A DNA stretch of 64,000 bases, taken from NCBI GenBank assembly GCA_932294295.1, contig OW028578.1, positions 35,875,685 to 35,939,684 on the forward strand, given 5' to 3'. The stretch's first letter is position 1; each line of letters begins with the position of its first letter. Source of the stretch: Alitta virens. Lineage: Eukaryota > Annelida > Polychaeta > Phyllodocida > Nereididae. The notes beneath the pieces were generated by a model. It saw only the letters and a list, made by a program, of their open reading frames with translations, had not been told where the DNA came from and did not search any database. The translations under genes were made by a program, and so were the position numbers. Shown here in pieces: positions 15,390-20,612 of the stretch.

Positions 15390-15642
15390 CTGTGAAGTAA
15401 CACGTATCAGAATGTTTCTATCAATAGTAAATATACACCTCATGGCATCCATTTTCAAACACAAGGAATGCAATGACCTCAACAAGGGACCACCATTTTT
15501 AAGAGACATATATAGCTGCATCATTGTGAGGACACATGGAAGAAAAATAAAAAAACCATAAAAAATGTTTTTTATACCATACATTTACATACTTAAAGTA
15601 TAGTTTCAGAGGAATTTAATGTTTTCATAATTGTATGACTTA
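15390..15642. other. Host intron left of the transposon
   Basis: AT-rich; no open frame of note. Carries one copy of the TGTGAGGACAC motif near 15523. The TTA target-site duplication occupies 15640-15642. Confidence 0.6.
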
Positions 15643-15688
15643 AGCCCCGTTCCCACATAGCCGAGTTACTCGTAGTCAACTCGTAGTA
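15643..15688. repeat. Left terminal inverted repeat of Harbinger
   Basis: 46 bp identical to the reverse complement of 20563-20608. The identity resumes (ATTACGTAACAC) after an indel of about 11 bp. Confidence 0.97.
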
Positions 15689-15886
15689 TTACGTAACACG
15701 CCTCTCGGGCCCAACTCTTACTAAACTCGGCGATTACTCCTCGCACTCGAGAGATGCTCGGCGAGTAACTCCTGAGTCTCGTAGCGAACTCGTGAGATTT
15801 GGAGCCGAGTTTGCCGAGTCTCCCGAGTATGCCGTGCTGCACGGCACACTCGGCGAATTATCCAGGAGTCCAAAAACTTGGCCATG

Positions 15887-15982
15887 ACTCGCCGAGTTAC
15901 TCCTCGAACTCGCCGAGTTACTCCTCGAACTCGCCGAGTTACTCCTGGAACTCGCCGAGTTACTCGCCGAGTTACTCGGCGC
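15887..15982. repeat. Left subterminal 21-bp repeats, set 1
   Basis: Tandem 21-bp units of the form CGCCGAGTTACTCCTCGAACT containing the near-palindrome ACTCGCCGAGT. Probable binding sites for the transposase or the Myb-like partner (inference from position and periodicity). Confidence 0.85.
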
Positions 15983-16026
15983 TAATTTCACTCGTATTAC
16001 ACTCGACTGGATGTTCAGGAGTGCGA

Positions 16027-16114
16027 GGAGTAATTCGCCGAGTTGTAGGAGTAATTCGCCGAGTTGTAGGAGTAATTCGCCGAGTTGTAGGAGTAATTCG
16101 CCGAGTTGTAGGAG
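16027..16114. repeat. Left subterminal 21-bp repeats, set 2
   Basis: Four tandem 21-bp units GGAGTAATTCGCCGAGTTGTA, in opposite relative orientation of the GAGTAA element to set 1. Lies 150-240 bp upstream of the TATA box of the + strand gene. Confidence 0.9.
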
Positions 16115-16263
16115 TGCCAGAATTCAGTCGAGGGGGTTTAAAGTGTCACTCCGTGGGTTTAACCAGTGAATGATGTAGATCCAACGCGCTTGGACTAACT
16201 GCAAATGACGCAATGGTATCTGGGTTTGTTATGTCATCACAGCGGGGTACGCTCTCTAGGTAG

Positions 16264-16298
16264 TATATAAAGATTGACCAGTGATCAGGGGATCATTC
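16264..16298 (+). promoter_or_regulatory. Core promoter of the MADF/Myb-like gene
   Basis: TATATAA at 16264-16270, then GATCATTC at 16291-16298, 27 bp downstream and suited to an initiator. The 5' UTR would be about 55-60 nt. The transposase gene has the same pair of elements on the other strand. Confidence 0.7.
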
Positions 16299-16353
16299 AG
16301 CATTTTGCTAACACACATAGAAGACCAAAAGACCGCTCCAGAAATTTTTTATC

Positions 16354-18015
16354 ATGCCGATGAAAAAGACCAGGTTCGCCAAAAGGCCTGCAGTGGACAC
16401 AGAACTATCTGCTGGATCTTCTGATGACTCTGAAAACCCGACAAAGACATCGCAGAAGACTGCTCTTCCTGTGAAGAAAATGAAGAAGTCTGCTCCAAGA
16501 TCTCCTGCCAAGAGGACTGCTGCTGCAAGATCTCCTGGCAAGAAGACTGCTGCTGCTGCAAGATCTCCTGCCAAGAGGACTACTGCTGCTGCAAGATCTC
16601 CTGCCAAGAGGACTGCTGCTGCAAGATCTCCTGCCAAGAGGACTGCCAAGACGCGTCTGCCAGTGCCAGTAAGAACGTCATCAGATGCTGGCAGTAGTAA
16701 TGATGAGCCCCAGGTTGCTACTCCTGCGTCTGCTGCAGCACCTGCTACTTCTTCGCCTGCACCTGCTCCTTCGCCTGCTCCTTCGCCTGCTCCTTCGCCT
16801 GTTCCTTCGCCTGCTCCTTCGCCTGCTTCTTCGCCTGTTCCTTCGCCTGCTCCCTCGCCTGCTACTTCACCTGCTACGTCCGAAGTGCCTGCTACACTTT
16901 CCTATGTTGCCAGGAAAAAACAGGAAAAGTTGTTCCTGCCAGCCACTGATGAGCAGGATATCGCTGACTGGTTTAGAGACAATCCCATTTTTTATGACCG
17001 GACCTTGAAAGCCTACAAGGATTCAGGCAAGAAAATGGCCCTCATCAATGAGATGGCAAGCAAACTGAGTGTCCCCTGCACTGGATACCAATTGAAAACC
17101 TGGATGGAATCCATGCGGACTGTCGCAGGGAAACTAGTGCGACAGGGACCATCTGGAACTGCGAAGAGGAACCCCACAGAGAAGGAGTTGTGGATTATAT
17201 CGAATTTTGGATTCCTTGTGGACCACATTACACGTATTCCAAGTCGCCGGGGGAACACTGCCCTCCAGAAGAAAATTGGCAAGGCACGGGAGACACTTAA
17301 AAATCTCGAGGAAGAAGAAGGGAGCTCTACTCCAGCTGATGATTCCGGGCCCCAGGAAATTTCTGATCCGGACATTTCTATGGATATCCCTCCTGTCCGG
17401 CAGACGAAGGGTGGTCCATACAAGAAAAGGAAAAGGTCCACGCCACCGCAATCTGGCATAGAAAATCTTGTTAACATTGCCAGACAGTCTACTGGAGTCA
17501 TCCAGCAGACTATGCAGCAAATGGCCGTTCCTCCAAAGGATTTGAAGGAGAGGCGAATCCGGGCGATGGGGGAGTTCATTGTCATGGAATGCCTGTCCAT
17601 GGATGATGAAGCATTTGAAGACCTGCACAGCAACCTGATCCCCACACTCATGCAGCTCAAAGCGAATGCCATTAGAGCCAGGTTCCAGCTGCAGCATCAA
17701 CCCCAGCATCAACCTCAGCAATTCATGCAGCACCAGCAGCATCACCAGCAGCATCACCAGCAGCAGCACCAGCAGCAGCACCAGCAGCAGCACCAGCAGC
17801 ACCAGCAGCACCAGCAGCAGCACCAGCAGCAGCACCAGTTCTATCCTCCTTCTGGGTCCCAGCATCAGGTGCACTTCCCACCAATGATAAGTCCAGAAAA
17901 GAATTGGCCAGCGGGAACCTCAGCAATGCCTCCTTCCGGACCTCCATCCATGATTTCCGAGATTCCCACCACTTCAACTCCTGCTTTGAACATAAGCCAG
18001 TTTTTGAATGTTTGA
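16354..18015 (+). CDS. Harbinger MADF/Myb-like DNA-binding protein
   Basis: 553 codons, no intron evident. Residues ~48-98 are five repeats of the type RSPAKRTAAA, like a histone H1 tail. Residues ~133-175 are Pro-Ala-Ser repeats encoded by CCTGCTCCTTCG. Residues ~197-297 form a MADF/Myb-SANT-like domain with signature tryptophans and aromatics (DWFRDNPIFYD, AYKDSGKK, LKTWMESMRT). KKRKR near 357 is a likely nuclear signal. Residues ~446-496 are Gln/His-rich, from CAG/CAC runs. In PIF/Harbinger elements the second protein is known to bind subterminal DNA and help bring the transposase to the nucleus. Start chosen as the first ATG after the TATA/GATCATTC pair. The stop is followed 26 nt later by a histone-type stem-loop. 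Confidence 0.93.
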   Translation: MPMKKTRFAKRPAVDTELSAGSSDDSENPTKTSQKTALPVKKMKKSAPRSPAKRTAAARSPGKKTAAAARSPAKRTTAAARSPAKRTAAARSPAKRTAKTRLPVPVRTSSDAGSSNDEPQVATPASAAAPATSSPAPAPSPAPSPAPSPVPSPAPSPASSPVPSPAPSPATSPATSEVPATLSYVARKKQEKLFLPATDEQDIADWFRDNPIFYDRTLKAYKDSGKKMALINEMASKLSVPCTGYQLKTWMESMRTVAGKLVRQGPSGTAKRNPTEKELWIISNFGFLVDHITRIPSRRGNTALQKKIGKARETLKNLEEEEGSSTPADDSGPQEISDPDISMDIPPVRQTKGGPYKKRKRSTPPQSGIENLVNIARQSTGVIQQTMQQMAVPPKDLKERRIRAMGEFIVMECLSMDDEAFEDLHSNLIPTLMQLKANAIRARFQLQHQPQHQPQQFMQHQQHHQQHHQQQHQQQHQQQHQQHQQHQQQHQQQHQFYPPSGSQHQVHFPPMISPEKNWPAGTSAMPPSGPPSMISEIPTTSTPALNISQFLNV

Positions 18016-18036
18016 AGACAACAGTTTTAAAACCAT

Positions 18037-18078
18037 CCCCGGCCTTTTTCAAGGCCACCAAATCCTCCCAAAAGAGCA
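18037..18078. repeat. Left copy of 42-bp inverted repeat (shared 3' end)
   Basis: Identical over 42 bp to the reverse complement of 18745-18786, so both convergent genes carry the same sequence in the sense orientation. Weaker similarity continues downstream through GTACAC to an A-rich run. Confidence 0.93.
18041..18077 (+). terminator. Histone-type 3' end: stem-loop plus downstream element
   Basis: GGCCTTTTTCAAGGCC (18041-18056) matches every position of the metazoan histone mRNA stem-loop consensus GGYYYUHHUHARRRCC: a 6-bp stem with a UUUC loop. ACCA follows at 18057-18060, where histone cleavage is expected, then after 9 nt comes AAAAGAGC (18070-18077), like the U7 snRNA-binding downstream element. 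The stem-loop begins 26 nt after the stop codon, in the range of histone mRNAs. No AATAAA was seen between the stop and 18300. Confidence 0.85.
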
Positions 18079-18315
18079 CGCCTTGTACACATATCTGTGT
18101 ATAAACAATCAATCAAAAAAAAAAGTTCCAAAACCCTCCAAACTTTTCTCTATCTTTGTCCACGAAAGTATAATATTTTAGTCCAAAATCAATTTCTTCA
18201 CATCAAGTAACTTGTTCATATTTCCTTTTCATTACAGCACAGATATTGGTCCATTTTTTTGTAATATTTCTTTTAATAAGGGTTAATAATTTTGATGAAA
18301 GAAGACATACTTTTT

Positions 18316-18681
18316 TTGGTTCAGAAGTGCCGTAGTTGTTGGTTGTTCAGAAGTGCCATACTTTTTTTTTGTTCAGAAGTGCCGTAGTTGTGTCTTGTTC
18401 CGAAGTGCCGTATTATTTTTTTTGCTTCAGAACTGCCGTAGTTTTTTCTTGTTCAGAAGTGCTGTATTATTTTTTTTGCTTCAGAACTGCCGTAGTTTTT
18501 TCTTGTTCAGAAGTGCCGTATTATTTTTTTTGCTTCAGAACTGCCGTAGTTTTTTCTATTATACTGCAATGAAAATAATGAAAGTACGGCACTTCTGAAC
18601 AAGAAACAACTACGGCAGTTCTGAAGCAAAAAAAAGTACGGCACTTCTGAACAACCAACAACTACGGCACTTCTGAACCAA
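18316..18681. repeat. Foldback of GTTCAGAAGTGCCGTAG repeats between convergent genes
   Basis: The left part (to ~18560) is a tandem series of ~54-bp units alternating TTCAGAAGTGCCGTA and TTCAGAACTGCCGTAG with T-rich spacers. The right part (18588-18681) is the inverse. The outermost ~55 bp of the two sides pair almost perfectly, starting TTGGTTCAGAAGTGCC. It may be a separate foldback insertion or a built-in element separating the two transcription units. No clear target duplication was found. Confidence 0.85.
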
Positions 18682-18744
18682 TAAAATATTTTGTGTGGGT
18701 CAGACAGAAACTTTTTTTTTATTACACAAGAAGTGTACATGGTC

Positions 18745-18786
18745 TGCTCTTTTGGGAGGATTTGGTGGCCTTGAAAAAGGCCGGGG
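18745..18786. repeat. Right copy of 42-bp inverted repeat (shared 3' end)
   Basis: Reverse complement of 18037-18078. Lies downstream of the transposase reading frame on the minus strand. Confidence 0.93.
18746..18782 (-). terminator. Histone-type 3' end of the transposase gene
   Basis: On the minus strand GGCCTTTTTCAAGGCC (18767-18782), ACCA (18763-18766), then AAAAGAGC (18746-18753), same spacing as in the partner gene. It starts 20 nt after the TAA at 18803-18805, the apparent original stop of the transposase. An AATAAA also lies downstream on the minus strand (18718-18723) and could serve as a back-up poly(A) signal. Confidence 0.85.
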
Positions 18787-18802
18787 TTGTTTTGTGGAAT
18801 CT

Positions 18803-18952
18803 TTATACCATGTCATCTTGCCATGGCACTCTTCCTTCTTCTGAATTGACAAAGTCCACCAAGTACTGCCGTTGATTCTTGGCTGCTTCAGTCATAGAAT
18901 GCTCTCTATTTGTTGGTGGCATTTCATCGATTTCTCCAGCTGCCCTCTAAGT
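18803..18952 (-). pseudogene. Former C-terminal tail of the transposase, cut off by nonsense codons
   Basis: After the in-frame TGA at 18953-18955 the same frame holds one ACT codon, a TAG, and then 45 open codons ending in TAA at 18803. It includes EIDEMPPTNREHSMTEAAKN and later EEGRVPWQDDMV, protein-like and in the same frame. Substitution of one base in each stop would leave a continuous frame of about 441 codons. No GT donor allows the pair of stops to be spliced out. Readthrough or a functional truncated protein cannot be excluded. Confidence 0.75.
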
Positions 18953-20128
18953 TCATGGGATGATACGATGTGTGATTGGATCTTCATGGTCCAGCATGAT
19001 GTTCTGAGCAGTCGGATAAGTTATTCTCATCAGATTGTGGAGGCAGCAACATGCAATGACTATAGATTCCACTGTCTTAGTTCTTTGTGGCATGGTAGTC
19101 AGGAGACACCTGAACCTTGCTGCAAGGATCCCAAATGCGTTTTCCACAATTCTTCTTGCCCGGGAGAGGCGGTAATTGTATATCCTCTGTTCTTTGGTCA
19201 TGTTTCTGAGAGGCAGTGGCTTCATCAGCCAGGTTCTCAAGGGGAAGGCATCATCTCCGACAATGAAGTAGGGAAGAGGTCTGTGACCAGGAAGAATTGG
19301 TTCAGGTGGAGGTAATCCAATGGTCCCTTCTTCAAGTCCTTCTCTCAGGAGTGTATCATTAAAAACTCCTCCATCAGATCCAGCGCCGTTTGCTCCACAG
19401 TCTACATAGAGGAACTTGTAATCAGCATCCACAAGAGCCATGAGTACGATGGAATGGTAGCCCTTGTAATTGAAATACACTGAACCACCTTTTGGAGGAC
19501 ATTTGATGGCCACATGCTTCCCATCAATGGCTCCAATACAGTGAGGAAAGTTCCACCTTGAATAGAACAGTTTCGCAACTTCTCTCCACTCTTCTGGAGT
19601 TGTGGGGCATGCCAGGACATCTTCATTATACTCCGCAATGATGGCTTCACAGACTTCTCGAATTATGTTGCTGATGGTATTGTAAGCCACTCTGAAGCCA
19701 TACATGAGGGACCTGTAGCTGTTTCCAGTTGCCAAATAGCGGAGGGTGATGGCAAGTCTGAGTCCTGGCTCCAAAGCTTTCCTCCAGAAGGTGTCTTCTT
19801 TGGTAATCCTATGACCTATTTTGCCAAGGATCCCTTGAAACATGGCTGGTTCCATTCTCAAAAAGTTAGTATAACTAGAAGTGTCCTCTTGCATCAGTTC
19901 AGTCAGTAGACGCTCATACTGTCCCATCTGAGGTCTTCTCAGCAGCCAGGGCCTCACCCAATACCTCCTCCTCCTCTTCCTCCTCATGGCTGCTAATCTT
20001 CTTTCTTCTTTCTTCTTACTCTCCTCATCCTCAAGTAATGCTGCTGCAACAACAGCAAGTTGCAGATTCGCATGAGCAGCTAGTAGTACCAAGACTCTAT
20101 TCTGATGTTCTGTCTGATGCATGTCCAT
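18953..20128 (-). CDS. Harbinger transposase (HARBI1-like, DDE_Tnp_4 family)
   Basis: 391 codons to the first stop. N-terminus is coiled and basic (KKKEERRLAAMRRKRRRR near residues 39-55), then a helix-turn-helix-like region (~120-180: LRYLATGNSYRSLMYGF, TISNIIREV). The catalytic triad is intact: D199 in GAIDGKH, D243 in YVDCGANGAGSDGG, E329 in RRIVENAFGIL. This enzyme cuts and pastes the element at TWA targets. ATG lies in a good context (ACCATGG), about 32 nt after the GATCATTC initiator. The truncation removes about 49 C-terminal codons but not the catalytic core, so activity is plausible. The missing tail follows in the same frame at 18803-18952. Confidence 0.96.
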   Translation of the reverse strand: MDMHQTEHQNRVLVLLAAHANLQLAVVAAALLEDEESKKKEERRLAAMRRKRRRRYWVRPWLLRRPQMGQYERLLTELMQEDTSSYTNFLRMEPAMFQGILGKIGHRITKEDTFWRKALEPGLRLAITLRYLATGNSYRSLMYGFRVAYNTISNIIREVCEAIIAEYNEDVLACPTTPEEWREVAKLFYSRWNFPHCIGAIDGKHVAIKCPPKGGSVYFNYKGYHSIVLMALVDADYKFLYVDCGANGAGSDGGVFNDTLLREGLEEGTIGLPPPEPILPGHRPLPYFIVGDDAFPLRTWLMKPLPLRNMTKEQRIYNYRLSRARRIVENAFGILAARFRCLLTTMPQRTKTVESIVIACCCLHNLMRITYPTAQNIMLDHEDPITHRIIP

Positions 20129-20156
20129 GGTCCTCTCTCTTCAGCAGCTACAGACA

Positions 20157-20195
20157 GAATGATCAAGAACAGAAGATGCAGCCCCTATTTATATA
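20157..20195 (-). promoter_or_regulatory. Core promoter of the transposase gene
   Basis: On the minus strand TATATAA (20189-20195) followed 31 bp later by GATCATTC (20157-20164), the same pair as in the + strand gene of the element. Suggests co-ordinated transcription. Confidence 0.7.
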
Positions 20196-20274
20196 TTTTT
20201 GTAATTAAACACAGCTATTTGCATAATAATTTAAGTAATAACCCTGATGAGTATCATGAGTATAACTCGTCGAC

Positions 20275-20498
20275 TTTACGAGTTACTCCTGGTACTCGGC
20301 GAGTTACTCCTGGTACTCGGCGAGTTACTCCTGGTACTCGGCGAGTTACTCCTCTAACTCGCCGACACTCTCCTCGAGATCGTTCACTAATTGGCTGCAA
20401 CTCGGCGAGTCACTCCTGGTACTCGGCGAGTCGCTCGCTGAACCCGCCGAGTAACTCGGCGAGTAATTCGGCGAGTAACTCGGCGAGTCACTCCTGGT
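20275..20498. repeat. Right subterminal 21-bp repeats
   Basis: Tandem and dispersed units TGGTACTCGGCGAGTTACTCC (four in a row from ~20290), then further CTCGGCGAG sites to ~20498. Related to the left subterminal sets through the GAGTTACTC core. Confidence 0.9.
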
Positions 20499-20562
20499 CA
20501 TTTTTTCCGCAAAAATTCGTCGCCAACTCCTCGAATTTTGGGTGTTACGTAATTTTTGTTAT

Positions 20563-20608
20563 TACTACGAGTTGACTACGAGTAACTCGGCTATGTGGGA
20601 ACGGGGCT
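20563..20608. repeat. Right terminal inverted repeat of Harbinger
   Basis: Reverse complement of 15643-15688 with no mismatch; followed by the TTA duplication at 20609-20611. Confidence 0.97.
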
Positions 20609-20612
20609 TTAC

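Follow-up and report, generated by a model that had tools for sequence, protein, structure and literature searches.

Histone-type 3' ends behind both genes of a PIF/Harbinger transposon and in other dispersed repeats of the same genome

Introduction

PIF/Harbinger transposons are recognised by their terminal inverted repeats and by a 3-bp TWA target duplication. Their two-protein system is treated in sections of PMC9710019. The element described here resembles the known PIF/Harbinger transposons in its two genes, its DDE_Tnp_4 transposase, its MADF partner, its terminal inverted repeats and its 3-bp TTA duplication, but differs from them in carrying histone-type 3' ends on both genes.

Replication-dependent histone mRNAs are the only animal protein-coding mRNAs known to end in a stem-loop rather than in poly(A), as stated in a passage of PMC6303110. 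In the histone system, as outlined in parts of PMC1924863, PMC7026596 and PMC5011920, SLBP binds the loop, U7 pairs with the histone downstream element (HDE) and cleavage takes place a few nucleotides past the loop. The ends reported below share with this mRNA end (Rfam RF00032 plus the U7-binding HDE) the 16-nt stem-loop, the ACCA, the AAAGAG core and the extended downstream element as they stand in the H2A, H2B, H3 and H4 genes of the host, and also a short distance from stop to loop and single-frame genes. Unlike replication-dependent histone genes, however, the genes in question belong to a mobile element and encode a transposase and its MADF partner.

A preliminary description of this DNA had stated that no DNA transposon with such an arrangement was known, and our search of the open literature by title and abstract, whose coverage excludes Repbase and most subscription journals, likewise revealed no precedent and no histone-type 3' end in any transposon. 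In the main text of PMC9710019 and of PMC9179366, the terms 'stem-loop' and 'polyadenylat' do not occur; 'histone' occurs twice in the former and four times in the latter, where all four instances concern something else.

Results

A PIF/Harbinger element with two convergent genes

The window (the whole 64-kb stretch of DNA analysed) contains an element (Table 1) that belongs to PIF/Harbinger by its DDE_Tnp_4 transposase, its MADF second gene, its terminal inverted repeats and the TTA on both sides (15640-15642 and 20609-20611). The two genes are convergent. Pfam identifies the transposase domain (PF13359, E 1.7e-30) and the MADF domain (PF10545, E 4.7e-5, 24.1 bits against a cut-off of 22), and no histone domain; the element encodes no histone. 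Its genes end like histone genes but are not histone genes.

In the window, two in-frame stops near the C-terminus disrupt the transposase, so that its frame is open only from 20128 to 18953 (391 aa). In an intact relative (P0001, 441 aa, with 99% identity across the query) the frame terminates at the original stop. Relatives found in the protein search with the transposase carry the name HARBI1, and one credible relative of the MADF protein (P0121) was present among the nine listed; the MADF domain region alone, used as query, returned none. DNA of relatives was not found in the viral contig collection, and the genome contig collection held a single relative locus, whose contig stops where the coding frame ends and where Rfam lists no Histone3. 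No read-through into the block was visible by eye in the tails of the 120 transposases listed. The MADF protein also has a run of SPAKR/SPGKK repeats near its N-terminus (16490-16646), which resembles the tails of histone H1 or sperm histones.

Table 1. Features of the window, and two groups of dispersed repeats found elsewhere in the host genome
Feature	Position or loci	Strand	Remarks
PIF/Harbinger element, 4,966 bp	15643..20608	.	Terminal inverted repeats of about 49 nt; TTA duplication
MADF gene, 553 aa	16354..18015	+	Stop 18013-18015
MADF stem-loop, histone-type, GGCCTTTTTCAAGGCC	18041..18056	+	25 nt past stop
HDE core of MADF gene, AAAAGAGC	18070..18077	+	
TTCAGAAGTGCCGTA, 13 copies (9 forward, 4 inverted; at most 2 mismatches)	18311..18686	.	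Between the stem-loops
AATAAA, possible backup poly(A) signal	18718..18723	-	43 nt past transposase stem-loop
HDE core of transposase gene, AAAAGAGC	18746..18753	-	Also aligned with host histone ends
Transposase stem-loop, histone-type, GGCCTTTTTCAAGGCC	18767..18782	-	20 nt past original stop
Transposase gene, originally 441 codons	18803..20128	-	Original stop 18805-18803
Virus-like dispersed repeat	L049-L060		PC4, RING-like and Ser/Thr-rich frames; block behind at least 2 frames
SGNH-hydrolase-like dispersed repeat	L038-L047, L068, L078		GGCCCTTTTAAGGGCC 49 nt behind frame in the copies measured

Histone-type ends behind both genes

Each gene is followed, in sense, by the stem-loop and then by ACCAAATCCTCCCAAAAGAGCA, with AAAGAG starting 14 nt past the stem-loop; thus an RF00032-type stem-loop and a purine-rich HDE are both present. 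The short stop-to-loop distance noted earlier was reproduced, the loops starting at the 26th nucleotide after the MADF stop and at the 21st after the original transposase stop. Similarly, the 42 nt that had been reported as common to both gene ends are indeed identical (18037-18078 on the forward strand and 18745-18786 on the reverse). Randomly reordering the core and 3' flank columns produced 42 consecutive identical columns in 4 of 200,000 trials, and reordering with both flanks included did so in 0 of 200,000. The flank behind the 42-nt core is also related between the two genes (its score was reached by 0 of 2000 shuffles), but the agreement extends to only 32 of 53 columns; the flank before it has no significant similarity (441 of 2000 shuffles are as good).

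The fit to the histone consensus, another point of the preliminary description, was borne out by Rfam, where RF00032 (Histone3) matches all 46 positions at both sites, with 30.7 bits (E 8e-5) and 28.8 bits (E 4.3e-4), the E values being computed for the 64-kb window against 4227 families. Both scores are below the gathering score of 34, and a default Rfam scan therefore lists no Histone3 in the window. With up to two mismatches, GGCCTTTTTCAAGGCC has only these two matches in the window (mean 0.02 in shuffles), and the stem-loop was part of the minimum-energy fold in all four stretches folded. The combined pattern of stem-loop, ACC and AAAGAG likewise occurs twice in the window and is absent from 100 shuffles and from IMG/VR, where the sole exact 19-mer match (L002) is not followed by AAAGAG. 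A chance origin of the stem-loops is excluded by the shuffles, by IMG/VR and by the window-level Rfam E values. Furthermore, neither gene has an AATAAA before its loop, as had been observed, nor an ATTAAA, within the gene itself.

The same block ends the histone genes of the host

Of the 54 matches found by a PF00125 search of the host genome (671 Mb, 23 contigs), 46 fall in a tandem array at C12:25.15-25.28 Mb. Its repeats are each about 5.9 kb long, and one of them (L079) served for the comparison that follows. In this repeat H2A, H3 and H2B end in GGCCTTTTTCAAGGCC and H4 in GGCCTTTTTAAAGGCC; the loops of all four are followed by ACCAAATCCTCCAAAGAGAGCAGACCATGTACAC or a close variant, and they lie 38 (H2A), 37 (H4), 28 (H3) and 30 nt (H2B) past the stops. 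An H2A.X-like gene on C4 (L067) carries the block as well, as GGCCCTTTTCAGGGCC ACCCAAATCCTCCCAAAAGAGC, 34 nt past its stop. Aligned with the ends of H2A, H4, H3 and H2B, the transposase unit matches in 53/59, 53/58, 53/59 and 54/58 columns and the MADF unit in 50/58, 51/59, 49/58 and 51/59; against H2A.X the figures are 47/59 and 50/61. From these matches we conclude that the 3' end of the transposon is that of the host histone genes, its long downstream element included. Thus the earlier interpretation of these ends as histone-type is strengthened by the host itself, whose H2A, H2B, H3 and H4 genes carry an almost identical 58-nt block at their ends.

Other copies of the family

A 60-nt query taken from the MADF-side block had at least 40 matches (40 scored of 971 candidates), all 100% identical and the window included; from the at least 39 further copies, 20 were fetched. 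Copies lacking the stem-loop would have told against the preliminary description. Both stem-loops are present in 20/20 copies, and none lacks one on either gene, a fair test for the transposase side only, since the search had used the MADF-side block. Both element ends (exact 17-mer) are present in 19/20.

Letter differences were counted from the best alignment per copy and, as the copies are related, serve as a guide. The invariance of the MADF-side block (0/798 letters differ) is uninformative, because these young copies were found through that very sequence. On the transposase side, 1/672 letters differ in the core against 83/4127 in the spacer. The corresponding counts are 134/7576 and 330/12608 in the outer non-coding parts, 141/21166 in the transposase and 381/31092 in the MADF coding sequence; the short segment from the MADF stop to the loop is as unvaried as the block (0/475).

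Other Harbinger groups and other dispersed repeats

An RF00032 search of the host genome gave at least 76 matches (75 scored of 130,344 candidates), so that all counts from it are lower bounds; 68 have E values up to 0.0013, and only 2 of the 76 listed exceed the gathering score. The tandem histone array is not among the matches listed. At E up to 10, the model finds matches in 14/14 prokaryote control genomes, none of them over the cut-off. We read 48 of these at least 76 ends (30 given as loci and 18 chosen by hand) and sorted them by similarity: 43 lie in dispersed repeats (19 in Harbinger elements, 12 in an SGNH-hydrolase-like repeat and 12 in a virus-like repeat), one in a histone gene (L067), two in paralogous frames (L048, L077) and two in no named group (L037, L075).

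In two Harbinger groups besides that of the window, both genes carry the block. In L033, L034 and L036 the partner gene, which was not the search hit, also has the block behind it; in L031 no second stem-loop was seen. Between the window's family (A) and family C, the transposases agree at 54% of 123 residues and at only 13 of 28 fourfold sites, and the blocks are identical at 53/58 letters (a hand count from the alignment). In L034, of family C, the first loop stands 15 nt past the MADF stop and 27 nt past the transposase stop, and both ends have tandem loops, one of them mismatched. Decay has affected several of the Harbinger copies, so that an intact frame does not precede the loop in every case (e.g. 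L070, L071). Tandem stem-loops, spaced by about 26-38 nt, were observed behind Harbinger genes in L061 (up to four), L072, L073, L076, L036 and L034, and several of these loops, the last one excepted, have no ACC behind them.

In the virus-like repeat (L050, L053) the PC4 frame is identified by PF02229 (E 1.3e-9) and the RING match is weak; the block lies 18 nt past the RING-like frame and 34 nt past another frame, of 105 aa, at whose stop stands a degenerate first loop. The label SGNH-hydrolase-like was read by hand from motifs, Pfam giving nothing convincing, and one member of that group (L078) has its first base changed and fails the strict pattern. In the paralogous frames, each of about 165 aa, the block stands 30 nt (L048, 1506-1521) and 41 nt (L077, 1153-1168) behind the stops; Pfam has no match for them, and they are possibly a non-histone gene or another repeat.

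Covariation in the stem, the loss of which would have spoken against a histone-type element, was assessed in 22 hand-picked units (20 distinct). In two of the six pairs both sides have changed, over 4 cells in total, and pairing is kept in 99.2% of cells. The covariation score was reached by 0/500 shuffles, the two both-side-changed pairs by 26/500 and the count of further pair types by 500/500. We take the result as support only, because the unit set was found with a structure model. At the level of sequence, it is confirmed that several dispersed repeat families share the host histone mRNA end and that in Harbinger groups it stands on both genes.

Discussion

Proposed processing of the element mRNAs

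We assign a probability of about 0.8 to the reading that both genes bear the replication-dependent histone 3' end of the host and that their mRNAs would be processed by SLBP and U7 and coupled to replication. Its sequence-level part is the right place and strand on both genes, the host's own block and the recurrence in other dispersed repeats. From this we infer that the mRNAs are cleaved near the ACCA and lack poly(A), and that transposase and MADF protein are expressed jointly in S phase. In the mechanism that we propose, SLBP and the U7 snRNP would cut the element mRNAs a few nucleotides past the loop, and the cut mRNAs would have no poly(A) tail and would be stable and translated mainly during DNA replication; the transposase and its MADF partner would therefore be made together in S phase.

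The candidate pairing partner for the 5' end of the host U7 is AAAGAGAGCAGACCATG. Against human U7, pairing of the downstream stretch was equalled in 16 and 14 of 1000 shuffles for the two sites; against fly U7, there was no clear excess (67 and 242 of 1000 shuffles as good). The preliminary description had called the matching U7 'vertebrate-type', which is too narrow: CUCUUU, the complement of AAAGAG, is present in both human and fly U7, as given in a part of PMC7026596.

Beyond the window, we lean, with less assurance, towards the view that mutually unrelated mobile elements, at least three Harbinger groups together with the virus-like and SGNH-like repeats, have adopted the host histone 3' end, so that their mRNAs would belong to S phase and lie outside the poly(A) pathway; this would link mobility to DNA replication and perhaps hide the mRNAs from poly(A)-dependent surveillance. 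The pattern points to mobile DNA having coupled its messages to the period of DNA copying. If so, transposon genes would form a second class of stem-loop-ended animal mRNAs, and such mRNAs would escape poly(A)-selected RNA-seq. The arrangement would also couple transposition in a simple manner to DNA replication, the period in which a cut-and-paste element is able to increase its copy number, and S-phase sensing by DNA transposons would become open to direct testing.

Alternative explanations

The alternative that survives best, and which we nevertheless regard as unlikely, is that downstream cleavage and polyadenylation produce most of the element mRNAs, the histone block being kept within the 3' UTR in a lesser role or for use in certain cells. 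The AATAAA 43 nt past the transposase loop would allow this, and in other animals, too, histone genes have poly(A) signals past the hairpin; however, according to the same passages of PMC1924863, the nematode and fly cases normally use the hairpin end. Moreover, the first AATAAA on the MADF strand is at 18680, 624 nt past the loop, and the whole block, HDE included, has been kept across distant families. Between the loops, the copies of TTCAGAAGTGCCGTA make up a long inverted repeat, and read-through RNA would form an extended hairpin there. This region (18311-18686) also gives sub-threshold matches to plant microRNAs in Rfam.

Far less probable is that the block is a passive leftover, with histone 3' ends captured by recombination or gene conversion and now functionless. 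Recent copying would indeed give blocks nearly identical to those of the histone cluster. Against it, the block stands in sense shortly behind both stops in at least three Harbinger groups and also behind two frames of another repeat, the element has no other histone gene sequence, and the core differs less between copies than the spacer does. Finally, it is scarcely credible that the inverted 42-mers are a DNA-level feature (a nested foldback insertion or protein-binding sites) that mimics a histone end: although they are inverted repeats enclosing further inverted repeats, L034 and L036 have the block in tandem, in sense and behind stops, and a nested foldback is rejected by the missing direct duplication around the pair of 42-mers and by the match to the host histone genes, which carry the same block.

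Promoters and flanking satellite

Histone promoters are also characterised by a cap motif and an octamer motif. Both promoters of the element share TATATAAA and, at the expected start, GATCATTC (16264-16298 on the forward strand and 20224-20157 on the reverse), the CATTC of the latter lying 28 and 32 nt after TATAAA. The 43.8 kb that lie outside the satellite contain GATCATTC four times, twice at these promoters. Both promoters also share TGCAAAT, and the transposase gene has the full octamer ATGCAAAT. In the one host histone repeat read, there was no TATA box with CATTC at 20-45 nt and no octamer, and for this reason we do not claim mimicry of a histone promoter. The right third of the window (43807-64000) is occupied by a 20-kb satellite array with units of 224/444 bp.
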